Source of the DNA: Bradymonas sediminis
GTDB lineage: Bacteria; Myxococcota_A; Bradymonadia; Bradymonadales; Bradymonadaceae
Assembly (NCBI RefSeq): GCF_003258315.1
Contig: NZ_CP030032.1
Coordinates: 4,509,501 to 4,573,500, forward strand
Reading direction: 5' to 3'
DNA length: 64,000 nt
Shown here: piece by piece, positions 3,307 to 25,085 of the stretch
Position numbering within the stretch: position 1 is the first letter of the stretch
Layout: each line of letters begins with the position of its first letter
Position numbers and translations under genes: made by a program
Notes under the pieces: model-generated
The model's input: the letters and a program-made list of their open reading frames with translations, nothing else
What the model was told of the DNA's origin: nothing
Databases searched by the model: none

Positions 3307-4809
3307 CTACTTCAGGTATTGCAGCGCCCCAGATTTCAAGGCCTCGGGGTCCCAGCCGCTCTCATTGCGCAATTGCGCCTGCGGATAGGTGCAATACAGC
3401 CCCGCCATAAGCGCGGAGGGGCGGTGGTTGCCCGATTTATTGATGCCGCCAAAGGGCAACCGACTCGACGCGCCGCAGGTAGAGCGATTGAGATTCAGTA
3501 TCCCGCTCTTTAGGCCGTAGGCCATCTCCTCGAAGCGGGTCTCGTCCGCGCTAAAAACGCTCATCGCCAGACCGTATTCCGTGGCGTTCGCCACGCGCAC
3601 GGCTTCCTCATCCGAGTCGACCGTATAGATCACGACATCGGGGCCGAATAATTCCTGCCCCTGATGCGACCCGTGCAGGTCGACCGATTTGGCCAACCAG
3701 AGCGAGGGTTTCACAAAATATCCGTCGAGTTCCTTGCAGGCGCGCCCGCCCTCGAGGAGAAGGCTCAGATTACCACCTTCGGTGTCGCTCTGCGCCTTAA
3801 TAAACGCCTCGTATCCCGCCTTGCTCGCCAGGGCGCCCATAAAGGGCGGGGCGTCGGGGTTTGCCAGCGCATCGCCGACGGTGATGCGCCGGGAGACATC
3901 GCGCAGGGAGTCGATAAAATCGTCAGCGACTTCGCGGCGTACGACGACGCGACTCGTCGCGCTGCAACGCTGCCCGGCGGTCAGATACGCCGCCAGCGCA
4001 ACCTCGTGGGTCGCCTGGGCGAGGTCGGCATCTTCCAGAATTATCGACGTGTTTTTGCCGCCCATTTCGAGCGCCAGCAGCTTCCAATGATGCTCGGCGG
4101 TCGCGCGTTTGATGGCCATGCCGGTCGTCCACGAACCCGTAAACAGCACGCCATTGACGCCGCGATGCCCGGCCAACTTCGCCCCAACTTCGCCCGGTCC
4201 CTGCACGAGGTTAAGCACACCGGCCGGAAGACCAGCCTTTTCTGCACATTCGAAATAGAGCTGCATGCACCCGGGGGCCATCTCGGAGGGCTTGACCACC
4301 ACCGTATTGCCGTTAACGAGCCCCGGAATGATATGCCCATTGGGAAGATGCAGCGGGAAGTTAAACGGCCCGAAGACGCCCAGCACGCCCAGGGGTCGGT
4401 AGGTCCAACGCCCACCCTCAAGCCCCTTCGGAAACACGTCCCGGGTCAACTCCAGCCCCTCGCCGCACATAATATCGATCTTCGCGGTGAGCGCGCCGGC
4501 CTCCGTGCGCGCCTCCCACAGCGGCTTTCCAACTTCGCGCGCGATGGCCACGGCGAGCTCTTCTTTCCGCTCGGCGAGCGCCTCCTGAAAACGCATCAGG
4601 TGCGCGATGCGCCCCTCGCGGCCGAGCCGATCCCAGGCCGGCAGCGCTTTTTGGGCCGCGGCGACCGCGTCATCGACCGCCGCGCTCGACCAGGGCCCCT
4701 CAAAAACCGTCTGCGACACCCGACACGGATTCTCCCGCTTCAGCGTGCCTTCGCGCGCCTTAACCGGCTGCCATTTTCCTGCAATATAGTTGCCTTTATA
4801 ATCGATCAT
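3307..4809 (-). CDS. astD: N-succinylglutamate 5-semialdehyde dehydrogenase family (AstD)
   Basis: This 500-residue aldehyde dehydrogenase has the full catalytic set: Asn150 in FGPFN, Glu248 in ALEMGGK and the nucleophile Cys282 in AGQRCSATSR. The stretches FPLHLPNGHIIPGL, LNLVQGPGEVG and NKSGNHRPSA are those of AstD, which oxidises N-succinylglutamate semialdehyde to N-succinylglutamate with NAD(P) in the arginine succinyltransferase pathway. No other ast gene is nearby, so the physiological substrate could be a different semialdehyde. Length is usual for the family. It stands alone, with about 140-155 non-coding bases on each side. The family call is firm and the substrate less so. Confidence 0.85.
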   Translation of the reverse strand: MIDYKGNYIAGKWQPVKAREGTLKRENPCRVSQTVFEGPWSSAAVDDAVAAAQKALPAWDRLGREGRIAHLMRFQEALAERKEELAVAIAREVGKPLWEARTEAGALTAKIDIMCGEGLELTRDVFPKGLEGGRWTYRPLGVLGVFGPFNFPLHLPNGHIIPGLVNGNTVVVKPSEMAPGCMQLYFECAEKAGLPAGVLNLVQGPGEVGAKLAGHRGVNGVLFTGSWTTGMAIKRATAEHHWKLLALEMGGKNTSIILEDADLAQATHEVALAAYLTAGQRCSATSRVVVRREVADDFIDSLRDVSRRITVGDALANPDAPPFMGALASKAGYEAFIKAQSDTEGGNLSLLLEGGRACKELDGYFVKPSLWLAKSVDLHGSHQGQELFGPDVVIYTVDSDEEAVRVANATEYGLAMSVFSADETRFEEMAYGLKSGILNLNRSTCGASSRLPFGGINKSGNHRPSALMAGLYCTYPQAQLRNESGWDPEALKSGALQYLK

Positions 4810-19223: not shown

Positions 19224-20337
19224 TCTCCTCGATGGTGAGGCTGCAGCCGCGCAACTCGGCCTGGGGGGCGCGTCCCAATAATCGGAAGCCGCCGCCCTCG
19301 ACCAACACGCCGAGGTCGCTGGTCTGAATCGCCATCACGCTCTCGGTATTGGCCAGGTCATACCAGCGAATCAGGCCCTGCTCACCGGGGGTCTCGATGG
19401 GCTCAAAACTTAAAGGGTCGACCAGTTCCACGCGCACCCAGGGCGGCGTCTGGAGCACATTATCACCGCCAGCCCCGTCCTTTTCGGCCGAAAGATGGTC
19501 CAAAAAGAGGTTGTCGCTATACGCCTGGCTCGACAATTCGGTCATGCTATATTCGCTGACCCCATTTCGCTTCGAGATGCCCAGGCGATGCTCAAAAATC
19601 TCGTAGAGTTCGTCGCGGGTAACCTCGCGCGTCTTCCCCTTAAACCCGCCCGTTTCCATGATGCGCGAGCCCTCGGCGAGTTGCCAGCGCTGCTCGCAGG
19701 AGTCAAAGAATTCGATAAAGCCGAAGGACGTCCCCAGCAGCATCGTCGGCACGCCGTCGGCCTGCGCCTTGTCGAGCGCCTCGCGAAGTTCATCGAAGCG
19801 CATCTCAAGCTGGCCGTCTTCGCCGGGGCGCACAAAATACGCGCTCTCTGCGTCCCCAAAACGCCCGACCAATTCGTCGAGCATATACGACAGACTGCTG
19901 TCCTGGAGGTCTCGGCCAGACGGCGCGACCACCAGCATCCGGAGGGTGTCGACATCCGGCACGCAAAAGCGACGAAACGGCCCGACGAGCGCGGTCTGAT
20001 ACACGTCGAGCGTGCCAAATCGGTGCTCACCGCGCGCGCCCAGGGTCGTCCCGCTGGTGCGAAAAACCCGCACCGGCTCTTCGGCCACCGTCAATCGCAC
20101 ATGCTTAAAGACGTCGGTCGGCACCGCCGGGATATCGCGGTAGCTCGCGATATCATCGGGCCCGATGCCACGCTTCTGACAGAATTTTCGGTAGGGCTCG
20201 TTTTGAGCGAATTGCACGCGAAAAATCTCGCGGGCGAAGTCGTTAAATTTCGCGTCAGACCAATCGAGCGCGTCCTGGAGCGGATTCCAGGCGGTGATGG
20301 CGTCGATAAGCTTCGCTTTCGGGCTATTTTGACTCAT
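19204..20337 (-). CDS. luxE: LuxE-like acyl-protein synthetase / acyl-transferase
   Basis: The 377-residue protein belongs to the LuxE branch (PF04443) of adenylate-forming enzymes. RTSGTTLGARGEHRFG is the nucleotide-binding loop, GGFKGKTREVTRDEL and SEYSMTELSSQAY are family-typical, and TIEEIVDASR ends the chain. LuxE activates fatty acids as acyl-AMP, takes the acyl group on a Cys and passes it to LuxC. The gene is followed, with a 20-base overlap, by the LuxC-like gene and lies 36 bases after rlmD in the same direction, at the end of the dnaN-recF-rlmD run. Confidence 0.8.
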   Translation of the reverse strand: MSQNSPKAKLIDAITAWNPLQDALDWSDAKFNDFAREIFRVQFAQNEPYRKFCQKRGIGPDDIASYRDIPAVPTDVFKHVRLTVAEEPVRVFRTSGTTLGARGEHRFGTLDVYQTALVGPFRRFCVPDVDTLRMLVVAPSGRDLQDSSLSYMLDELVGRFGDAESAYFVRPGEDGQLEMRFDELREALDKAQADGVPTMLLGTSFGFIEFFDSCEQRWQLAEGSRIMETGGFKGKTREVTRDELYEIFEHRLGISKRNGVSEYSMTELSSQAYSDNLFLDHLSAEKDGAGGDNVLQTPPWVRVELVDPLSFEPIETPGEQGLIRWYDLANTESVMAIQTSDLGVLVEGGGFRLLGRAPQAELRGCSLTIEEIVDASR

Positions 20338-21975: not shown

Positions 21976-23139
21976 TTATGTGGGCGTGACTTCGCCGCTT
22001 TTGACCGCGTAGGTCTGCACATCTTCGTCCAATAAAATATAGTCGCGATGGGTGGTCGTGATGAAGACCTGCCCTTCCATACGGTGGCGCAAAAAGTCGA
22101 AGAGGAACCGGTTTCGCTCCCGGTCGAGCTCGCTGGAGACATCGTCGAGCAGCAAAATCGGCGCGAATCGGTAGCGCTCTTCCAGGTGCGATATCTCGGC
22201 GATCTTCATCGCCAACACAAACGCGCGGTGCTGACCCTGACTGGCAAAAGTCTTTATATCTCGACCATTTATGCGCGTCGACAGGTCGTCACGATGGGGG
22301 CCAATCAGCGTGTACCCGCGGCGTTGCTCGTCGGCCCGGGTCCTCTCTAGACCTTCGAAGAGGACTTCTTCAAGGTCACGCCGGTCGCGCTTGCCCGGCT
22401 GCGAGGGCAGATGCGCGTCCTGGCGCGATTCCTCACGCCGAAAATCATGCGAATCCGCGTCTCGCCACTTCATATAATAGCCGATTTCGGCCTCGAAGGA
22501 CTCATCAAAAATGGATTGAAAAGTCCGGCGCAATATCGGTCGAAAATGTGCCAAAAAATCCAGACGACGCTCGATAATCCGCGCGCCGTATTGGACCAGT
22601 TGCTCATCGTAGACGCTCATCAAAGAGGCGTCATAGCGCGCGTCCTTGAGCAGAGCGTTACGCTGGGCGAGGACATCCTCATAATGCTGGGTTTCGGTGG
22701 CGTAGGCGGGCTGAGCGTTGAAAATCGCGCGGTCGATAAAGCGGCGGCGCTCCGAGGGCGAGCCCTTCAGAATCGCGATATCCTCGGGCCCAAACATCAC
22801 CACATTGACGGTGCCAAAAAAGTCCGAGAGTTGGCGCACCGGCGAGTCATTGAGAAATATCTTCTTGCCGCGGGCGCCAATCTCCAGGCGCACGATGCGC
22901 TCCGAGCCGCCGCGGTCCACCCGCGCCACCAGCGACGCCTGCTCCTGGCCGAATCGAATCAGGTCGCTGTTGACCTGCGGGCGAAAGCTCTTCACGGCGC
23001 CTAGCAGGTAAATCGCCTCCAGAATATTGGTCTTCCCCTGGCCATTTTGTCCGCTCAAAATATTGAATCGCGGATGCGCGTCGAGGCGCACGTCGGCGAT
23101 ATTGCGGAAGTTTGTAATGTGCAGGGCGTCTAGAAGCAT
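21976..23139 (-). CDS. recF: DNA replication and repair protein RecF
   Basis: The 387-residue SMC-like ATPase opens with LHITNFRNI and Walker A SGQNGQGKTN, and carries the signature and Walker B parts near the C-terminus (TFASQGQHRAFVLAMK, PILLLDDVSSELD). RecF helps RecOR load RecA on gapped DNA. The start at 23139 was preferred over an in-frame one 25 codons upstream because family members begin directly with this strand; neither has a strong ribosome site. It lies between dnaN and rlmD, the usual dnaN-recF neighbourhood near replication origins. Confidence 0.95.
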   Translation of the reverse strand: MLLDALHITNFRNIADVRLDAHPRFNILSGQNGQGKTNILEAIYLLGAVKSFRPQVNSDLIRFGQEQASLVARVDRGGSERIVRLEIGARGKKIFLNDSPVRQLSDFFGTVNVVMFGPEDIAILKGSPSERRRFIDRAIFNAQPAYATETQHYEDVLAQRNALLKDARYDASLMSVYDEQLVQYGARIIERRLDFLAHFRPILRRTFQSIFDESFEAEIGYYMKWRDADSHDFRREESRQDAHLPSQPGKRDRRDLEEVLFEGLERTRADEQRRGYTLIGPHRDDLSTRINGRDIKTFASQGQHRAFVLAMKIAEISHLEERYRFAPILLLDDVSSELDRERNRFLFDFLRHRMEGQVFITTTHRDYILLDEDVQTYAVKSGEVTPT

Positions 23140-23210
23140 GGCGGGTCTGGGGCGTTTCGGGACCACTCGAGTGGGGCGCGCAACTCGCGTCTCTAATATA
23201 ACGCCTGAAC

Positions 23211-23248
23211 GCAAAACGCCACCGGCGAGCAGCGCGGTGGCGTTTTGC
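23211..23248 (-). terminator. Hairpin terminator between dnaN and recF
   Basis: A 13-base perfect stem (GCAAAACGCCACC / GGTGGCGTTTTGC) with a 12-base loop lies just past the dnaN stop. The minus strand ends with TTTTGC in the stem. It probably lowers read-through from dnaN into recF. Confidence 0.6.
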
Positions 23249-23291: not shown

Positions 23292-24416
23292 TCACAGGCG
23301 CATCGGCATGACGACGAAGAGGGCCTCGTCGCTGGTCGGGTCGCGCATCAGCGTCGGCGAGAGCGTGTCGATGATCTCCAGCGAAACCTGGTCGCTGTCG
23401 AGCACGCCCAACACGTCGATGAGATAGCGATAATTATAACCCGCTTTGACCGGCTGACCGGTGTACTCGGCCGGGATGGTCTTGCGACCTTCGCCGCGGT
23501 CGGGGTCGGAGGCGTAGAGCTCGAGACCTTCGTCGGACAGCGACAGGCGCAGGTTATGCGTCTTGGGGCTGGCGAAGAGGCTGACGAATTTGAGCGCCTG
23601 CAGGAACATATCCTTTTTAACAAACGCCTTGTTGTCACCTTCTTTCGGCAGCACCTGGGTGAAGTCCGGGAAGGTTCCTTCGATGAGCATCACCGACATG
23701 GTCATCGGGCCCGACTGGAACACGATGCTATTGTCGACCAGGCCGAAGCTGAGCTCGGTGGCCTTGGCGTCGACGATGCGCTTGAGCTCCGAGAGGCCTT
23801 TGCGCGGAATGATGATTCCGTCGCGCAGCGTCTGATGGGTGTTCTCGCCGGCGGAGAAGGACTCCGGGTCGGCCTCGATTTTGGAGAGGCGATGGCCGTC
23901 GGTCGAGACCATCAGCAGCGTATTCTCGGCGGTGACGCGGAAGAACGCACCGGTGAGGTTGGCGCGGGCGTCGTCGGTCGACACGCTGAAGAGCGTCTTG
24001 TCGACCATATTGAGCAGGGTTTCGATGCCGATCGGGTACATCTCGACGCCGCTGGTGTCGAGAATCTGCGGGAAATCATCGGGGTGCGTACCGGCGATGC
24101 GGCAGACCACATTGCCCGAGTTCAGGTTGGCCCAATAATTATCTTCGGTCTCGATGACCAGGCTATCGTCGTCGAGATTCTTGACGATATCGAAGAGATT
24201 CTTCGCCTCGAGTGTGACGCTTCCTTCCTCGAGAACTTCGCACTCACAGGAAGTCGAAATCGACGTATCCAGGTCCGTGGCGTGCAACGTCAATCGACCA
24301 TCTTTGGCTTGCAGAAGAGCGTTCGACAAAATGGCGAGCGTGCTGCGCTGACTTACGACGCCCTGCAATTTAAATAATTCGTCGGTCAGGGCCTGCGGGG
24401 AAATACGAATTTTCAT
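23292..24416 (-). CDS. dnaN: DNA polymerase III beta sliding clamp
   Basis: This 374-residue protein has the normal clamp length and three repeated domains. Typical parts are LLQAKDGRLTLHATDLD (domain 1), FRVTAENTLLMVSTDGHRLS (domain 2) and the C-terminal VVMPMRL, which closes the ring and binds client proteins. It tethers polymerase to DNA. It is the first gene of a minus-strand run reading away from the non-coding region at 24.4-25.1 kb, which is the candidate replication origin. dnaA is not adjacent here. Confidence 0.97.
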   Translation of the reverse strand: MKIRISPQALTDELFKLQGVVSQRSTLAILSNALLQAKDGRLTLHATDLDTSISTSCECEVLEEGSVTLEAKNLFDIVKNLDDDSLVIETEDNYWANLNSGNVVCRIAGTHPDDFPQILDTSGVEMYPIGIETLLNMVDKTLFSVSTDDARANLTGAFFRVTAENTLLMVSTDGHRLSKIEADPESFSAGENTHQTLRDGIIIPRKGLSELKRIVDAKATELSFGLVDNSIVFQSGPMTMSVMLIEGTFPDFTQVLPKEGDNKAFVKKDMFLQALKFVSLFASPKTHNLRLSLSDEGLELYASDPDRGEGRKTIPAEYTGQPVKAGYNYRYLIDVLGVLDSDQVSLEIIDTLSPTLMRDPTSDEALFVVMPMRL

Positions 24417-24437
24417 AATGATCGCCTTCTAAAATCA

Positions 24438-24463
24438 GGTGGATTTGACCCGCTTAATCCACC
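24438..24463. promoter_or_regulatory. Inverted repeat upstream of dnaN
   Basis: Perfect arms GGTGGATT and AATCCACC, ten bases apart, begin 22 bases before the dnaN start. The arms resemble halves of DnaA boxes (GTGGAT/ATCCAC), so a DnaA-controlled dnaN operator is possible but unproven. Confidence 0.4.
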
Positions 24464-24589
24464 ACAGCTTGCCCTTAAATACAAGTCCCGTGAACGGGTT
24501 TGGGGGCAAAGATACTTCTCTAATTCCCCAGGGCTTTCTTACTGGTGCTTATAACTCAGGTTCCCTTCGTTTTTTAACGGCAGTAGTAA

Positions 24590-24780
24590 TAGTAGGCCCT
24601 GTGATCATGTGATCAAAGATTCTAAGTCGCTGAGTTTATTGGTTTTAAAATGTGGATAGATCGTGTGGTAAACGCGTGATCAAATTGTGATCTAAGCCCC
24701 TGGAGGTTTTCCAGATCCAAGATCACAGGGTTTTCCTCAGACGGATCACAGGGTTCTCCACAGAGTTTCCCACAGGCCTG
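24590..24780. other. Candidate chromosomal replication origin (oriC)
   Basis: Between dnaN and the next plus-strand gene lie about 670 non-coding bases. Within 24600-24774 there are six TGTGATCA-like octamers: tandem at 24600 and 24608, then 24675, 24686, and inverted at 24720 and 24743. The direct repeat GATCACAGGGTT occurs at 24721 and 24745. DnaA-box-like 9-mers are TGTGGATAG at 24651 and TTCTCCACA at 24754 (one mismatch each from TTATCCACA), with weaker ones at 24664 and 24766. An AT-rich stretch (GTTTATTGGTTTTAAAATG) lies beside the first box. This repeat structure next to dnaN-recF fits an origin; no perfect consensus box is present. From 24781 to 25085 no other feature was seen. Confidence 0.6.
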
Positions 24781-25085
24781 GAGGTCGTGAGAGAGGGGCG
24801 CCGGTTTTGAGCGCAATTCGGAGGGACTGGGAGACGAGTCATTTTTGGGGATCTCGAGGGGTATTTTAGGCGATCGAGCGCAAGAATCTGGGGCGATGGC
24901 CGGATCGATGGGCGCGACGATGTTGGGAGTAGCCGCCTAAGTGATCGTATTGCTTCGGATTATTCAGGCTGGCTGCGCGGTGAATCCGACGCCCGGATGG
25001 GATTTACATCACGTAAGGAGTCGTGATTAGATTGAACTTATGGTTTTCGTTAGGGGTTATTTTTGTCATTGGGCGGGGGAACGGC

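Follow-up and report, generated by a model that had tools for sequence, protein, structure and literature searches.

The window analysed here is a stretch of 64,000 nucleotides (positions 4,509,501-4,573,500) taken from the single 5,045,683-bp contig that makes up the 5.05 Mb host genome, which belongs to the order of Bradymonas and Lujinxingia. The region of interest is the gap upstream of dnaN, and the genes adjoining it on that side (dnaN, recF and rlmD) are all read leftwards. The encoded DnaN is 72-74% identical to those of Lujinxingia vulgaris and a Bradymonadaceae metagenome-assembled genome. The main features are as follows.

24417 to 25022, no strand: intergenic region predicted to bear the origin, with dnaN (leftward) on its left and a TPR/Sel1-like lipoprotein ORF on its right
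23292 to 24416, minus strand: dnaN (DNA polymerase III beta clamp), an origin neighbor conserved across the order
21976 to 23214, minus strand: recF (TIGR00611)

Six TGTGATCA-type octamers, all of which include GATC, occur in this gap at positions 24600, 24608, 24675, 24686, 24720 and 24743. The first two are exact and arranged in tandem, the copies at 24675 and 24686 read CGTGATCA and TGTGATCT, and those on the minus strand read TGTGATCT (24720) and TGTGATCC (24743); compared with the DnaA box TTWTNCACA, five of the six retain the CACA half and have A instead of T at position 4 is the reading of the variant. An earlier sequence-only reading of this DNA had listed these octamers including the tandem pair, a direct repeat of GATCACAGGGTT (copies at 24721 and 24744), one-mismatch DnaA boxes at 24651 (minus strand, CTATCCACA) and 24754 (plus strand, TTCTCCACA) and an AT-rich stretch, and all of these elements were recovered. 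The whole cluster is non-coding, lying between the dnaN start at 24416 and the start of the right-hand ORF at 25023, and the lowest-GC 60-mer of the gap (32% GC) starts at 24602.

Allowing up to one mismatch, the octamer is found 31 times in the whole window against 30.4 expected, which is the chance level, so that its clustering is the special feature. Exact TGTGATC/GATCACA 7-mers occur five times within 160 bp at the origin, and no second 160-bp stretch with even two of them was found in the part of the genome that was sampled (about 2 Mb); a random scatter of the octamer, which the sequence-only reading had named as evidence against itself, is not what this sample contains. A second cluster returned by pattern matching at 3.844 Mb lies within a protein kinase gene, at its end, and was taken as a chance occurrence. 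Sites of the CRP/FNR type follow the motif TGTGA-N6-TCACA, and this assignment was discarded for the octamers, which are direct repeats or have no 6-base spacer.

The proposal that this locus is oriC was accompanied by the expectation of a nearby minimum in cumulative GC skew. Calculated over 464 contiguous kb, the minimum falls at window position 20,128, 4.5 kb from the octamers, and the skew sampled over the whole genome agrees, changing from falling to rising at about 4.50-4.53 Mb with a roughly antipodal maximum near 2.1 Mb. The curve is nearly flat from about 8 to 50 kb of the window, so that skew alone narrows the origin down to no better than some tens of kb. The keto walk reaches its minimum at window position 4,765. 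The skew minimum is thus at this region, and not elsewhere next to a better DnaA-box cluster, the outcome that had been set against the oriC proposal. The coarse skew of the one-contig relative G010 has two minima. Elsewhere in the host genome, the 20 kb at 3,280,001-3,300,000 have a GC skew of -0.21, about three times the usual value for that arm, and another 20-kb stretch that seemed very AT-rich (L067) proved to be masked sequence (N) and no feature.

The contig begins at dnaA, 512 kb from the origin considered here, and its numbering would suggest an origin at that gene, the gap beside dnaN being then the dnaN promoter only. Among the 160-bp stretches sampled, moreover, the one upstream of dnaA is the richest in GATC (10 copies), followed by the origin of the window (8). 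However, the skew at dnaA is in mid-rise with no minimum and no TTWTCCACA box is present within 700 bp upstream of the gene, and an origin at dnaA was rejected on these grounds as barely credible. The sister family (e.g., G025, G021 and G024) points the same way: its origin region is still flanked by both dnaA and dnaN, and in the family of the window the two genes, where they share a contig (G010, G005, G004 and G013), are separated by about 90 kb or more. It is therefore likely that dnaA was relocated while the origin remained with dnaN. The GATC cluster upstream of dnaA (about 5,045,305-5,045,465; L003 from 19622 onwards) contains GATCAGATCAC repeats and has one TGTGATC nearby. Just upstream of dnaA there is also a 785-aa ORF (genome 5,042,926-5,045,283; L003 17243-19600) with pentatricopeptide-like repeats (motif NVITYNSLIKAFGDAGQPERAW), which is unusual in a bacterium; elsewhere in the family a different gene seems to take this place.

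The basal unwinding system (BUS) was described for Bacillus subtilis and is predicted in most bacterial origins, in the order 3'-GAT-5' trios, short G/C spacer and tandem DnaA boxes (PMC6669920, PMC8287927). The same layout, i.e., trios, GCCC and tandem TGTGATCA TGTGATCA, is present at 24584-24616:

24584 to 24595, plus strand: DnaA-trios TAG-TAA-TAG-TAG (3'-GAT-5' type), recognized from the sequence and from aligned trios in relatives, motif as defined in PMC8287927
24596 to 24599, plus strand: G/C spacer GCCC between the trios and the first box
24600 to 24608, minus strand: putative BUS DnaA box 1, ATGATCACA (TGTGATCAT), four mismatches to TTATCCACA, aligned with TGTGGAAAT of relatives
24608 to 24616, minus strand: putative BUS DnaA box 2, TTGATCACA (TGTGATCAA), three mismatches (positions 3-5), aligned with TGTGGAAAA of relatives

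The trios, which are predicted to be the single-strand landing site of DnaA and the start of unwinding, were absent from the sequence-only reading, as was the 11-12 base phasing described below. A BUS is recognized by at least three DnaA-trios (NAN) no more than 16 bases from a DnaA box, and here four trios end 4 bases from the first octamer, provided that the octamer counts as a box. The published search rule accepts at most two mismatches to TTATCCACA in the better box of the pair; the pair of the window, with three and four, falls outside it, whereas the pairs at the same place in relatives fall within. In addition, position 4, at which TTGATCACA deviates, is conserved in other 9-mer boxes.

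The regions upstream of dnaN were compared in 23 genomes of the order. Most of them contain trinucleotides ending in approximately TAGTAGG, a few mostly G/C bases and two DnaA boxes in an 8-base step, the pair being TGTGGAAATGTGGAAAA, TGTGGATTTGTGGATAA or similar. At the aligned place the window reads CAGTAGTAATAGTAGG-CCC-TGTGATCATGTGATCAAA, both boxes being replaced by TGTGATCA, and among 379 genomes of the phylum this is the only one with the replaced pair next to TAGTAGG; in G004, TGTGATC is the first box of the pair. The remaining boxes of the window form two series, one on each strand.

24651 to 24659, minus strand: near-canonical DnaA box CTATCCACA, one mismatch
24664 to 24672, minus strand: weak DnaA box TTTACCACA
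24675 to 24683, minus strand: putative variant box TTGATCACG (CGTGATCAA)
24686 to 24694, minus strand: putative variant box TAGATCACA (TGTGATCTA)
24707 to 24715, plus strand: box-like TTTTCCAGA, first of the six 9-mers of the right array
24719 to 24727, plus strand: putative variant box AAGATCACA, right array
24731 to 24739, plus strand: box-like TTTTCCTCA, right array
24742 to 24750, plus strand: putative variant box CGGATCACA, right array
24754 to 24762, plus strand: near-canonical DnaA box TTCTCCACA, right array, one mismatch
24766 to 24774, plus strand: weak DnaA box TTTCCCACA, right array, where relatives have TTTTCCACA

The six consecutive 9-mers of the right array follow each other in steps of 12, 12, 11, 12 and 12 bases, and the four of the other strand (24651-24694) in steps of 13, 11 and 11. 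Strict TTWTCCACA boxes are absent from the origin of the window and present in those of relatives; the cluster expected of an oriC, non-coding and beside dnaN or dnaA, consists here of the two one-mismatch boxes and the weaker phased ones. In six genomes (G010, G003, G004, G005, G006 and that of the window) GATCACA occurs among ordinary TTTTCCACA boxes, and the CACA-to-CACA distances between the two kinds are mostly 11-12, 23-24, 35 and 46-47 bases. In a test that counts related genomes as independent, so that its 25 distances are not fully independent, 19 of the 25 were in phase with 11.7 bases, where 17.5% is expected by chance, and a score this high was reached in none of 20,000 random shifts.

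Variant and ordinary boxes interchange in place, since the same array carries TTTTCCACA five times in an 11-base step and no GATCACA in G015, and three GATCACA in G003 of the same genus. On the DnaN tree about four changes are needed to explain the distribution of the variant (G009 was scored as being without it, although it has one TGTGATC with the BUS further from dnaN), which suggests that it was gained or lost repeatedly. The dnaA promoter of G005 contains TGTGATCACA beside TGTGGATGA and TGTGGAAAA. As a separate observation, the DnaA of G015, whose oriC has canonical boxes only (TTTTCCACA in tandem, 11-base step), shows 48% identity and a branch of 1.41, compared to 60% for its genus mate G003, owing to contamination or fast evolution.

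The sequence-only reading had left two explanations for the octamer, either DnaA boxes departing from TTATCCACA or a repeat bound by another initiator. The former is favored, as the octamers sit exactly at the ordinary DnaA boxes of relatives, and no positive evidence emerged for the latter. The DnaA residues matching R399, D433, H434 and T435 of the Escherichia coli protein, which contact DNA in the structure of its domain IV, are conserved, and no substitution in domain IV was found that tracks the variant box across the family. A change in the recognition helix was thus discarded as the cause, and an altered specificity of DnaA is not supported. The unchanged contacts could equally be cited for an oriC in which TGTGATC is bound by some other protein, be it a repressor, a GATC binder resembling SeqA or a second initiator, whose site took over or overlaps the positions of DnaA boxes. 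The GATC core is identical in all six copies, a greater uniformity than would be expected of DnaA boxes decaying at random, and GATC, of which 8 lie in 160 bp here, is depleted in the non-coding DNA of the genome (observed/expected 0.85), a value that also rules out a general intergenic excess as the cause of the cluster. Against such a protein, the tandem octamers stand at the place of the BUS boxes and repeat the 8-base step of ordinary ones, the remaining copies keep the DnaA box register, the BUS would be left without any DnaA box if the octamers were discounted, and SeqA is absent from the genome; on balance this explanation seems unlikely.

Still less probable is that the octamers are decayed DnaA boxes with no special meaning and that origin function depends on the two near-canonical boxes (24651 and 24754). 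The fast turnover in the family, illustrated by G003 and G015, would fit such decay, but neither the same 7-mer five times nor the 23-base spacing of GATCACA common to G000, G010 and G003 is expected from drift. With the skew minimum, the conserved BUS-type layout of trios and boxes upstream of dnaN and the phased box arrays pointing to the same place, the locus is almost certainly the chromosomal oriC, as the sequence-only reading had proposed. The alignments further suggest that the octamer is probably a variant DnaA box, TTGATCACA standing for TTATCCACA, and the complete account, an oriC at 24584-24774 working with variant DnaA boxes, is put forward with good confidence.

According to this account, DnaA would bind the tandem TGTGATCA TGTGATCA beside the DnaA-trios, spread onto the trio strand and open the DNA, presumably leftwards. 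The minus-strand series of boxes (24651-24694) and that of the plus strand (24707-24774), with their steps of about one helical turn, would collect and deliver DnaA. TGTGATC/GATCACA would be a lineage-specific DnaA box that kept the CACA half and has GATC replacing the TATC half. Such a box would probably have a lower affinity, given that E. coli sites with two or more deviations from the consensus bind weakly (PMC6070618).

The presence of GATC in the boxes raises the question of methylation. Dam (PF02086), SeqA (PF03925) and the DpnII endonuclease (PF04556) are all absent from the genome, which therefore lacks the two proteins, Dam and SeqA, that origin control of the Dam/SeqA type would require. 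A single N6/N4 methylase (PF01555) is encoded at 3.457 Mb (L179 1465-2358, minus strand); in a nearly gapless alignment it shows 54% identity to the second methylase of pSRQ700, the plasmid of the GATC system LlaDCHI, against 43% to a CcrM-like enzyme, although CcrM is its closest solved structure by sequence. Each of the 13 well-completed genomes of the order encodes the methylase, with 65-84% identity, and no endonuclease was seen beside it in the loci read, so that it behaves like a core solitary methylase and probably serves the order as a core epigenetic enzyme. As it is present with or without GATC boxes, its co-occurrence with them is not informative. Its resemblance to a GATC enzyme makes this specificity putative and methylation control of the origin possible. 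A tentative and rather doubtful extension is that the DnaA boxes of this lineage are methylation-gated: the solitary, order-wide DpnA-type methylase would act on GATC in the unwinding-site boxes, and their full or half methylation after fork passage would alter DnaA binding directly, without SeqA, thereby restricting initiation to one event per cycle. There is precedent for such gating in chromosome II of Vibrio cholerae, the initiator of which, RctB, needs methylated GATC in its own sites (PMC2865523).

Few regulatory sequences of bacteria are as conserved as DnaA boxes. Here both boxes of a predicted unwinding site were naturally swapped to another 8-mer, with the DnaA contacts unchanged and close relatives retaining the usual sequence, and this swap offers a clean test of DnaA specificity and affinity at the unwinding step. 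The GATC in the variant, together with a conserved solitary GATC-type methylase and neither Dam nor SeqA, makes a separate rise of methylation control testable. Origin finders that use TTATCCACA with few mismatches would miss the pair of the window, and a literature search for TGATCACA together with the DnaA box found no paper.

The closest known arrangement is the BUS of B. subtilis and most bacteria (PMC6669920, PMC8287927), which has the trios, short G/C spacer and tandem pair in the same order and orientation, as well as further phased boxes; the difference resides in the two boxes of the window, with GATC for the TATC half and mismatches (three and four) beyond the search rule. The oriC of E. 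coli likewise has arrayed low-affinity boxes, and its over-represented GATC sites overlap weak boxes (PMC4285127, PMC6070618), but Dam and SeqA act in that setting and are missing here, and in the window GATC belongs to a uniform box that recurs along the array and also forms the unwinding-site pair. Lineage-specific DnaA boxes retaining the CAC(A) half are also represented by the G-boxes of Caulobacter (TGATCCACA) and the boxes of Helicobacter (TCATTCACA) (PMC4285127, PMC5043019), which have one or two differences from TTATCCACA, whereas TTGATCACA differs at positions 3, 4 and 5. Of the 9-mer boxes that a 2015 review names, the one furthest from TTATCCACA belongs to H. pylori and has two mismatches (PMC4285127); TTGATCACA/nnGATCACA would be more distant still. 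The 11/12-mers of RctB in V. cholerae chromosome II are, like the octamers, repeated initiator sites each with a GATC (PMC2865523); RctB, however, is a separate initiator serving a second chromosome, while the origin in the window would be a DnaA origin of the main chromosome.
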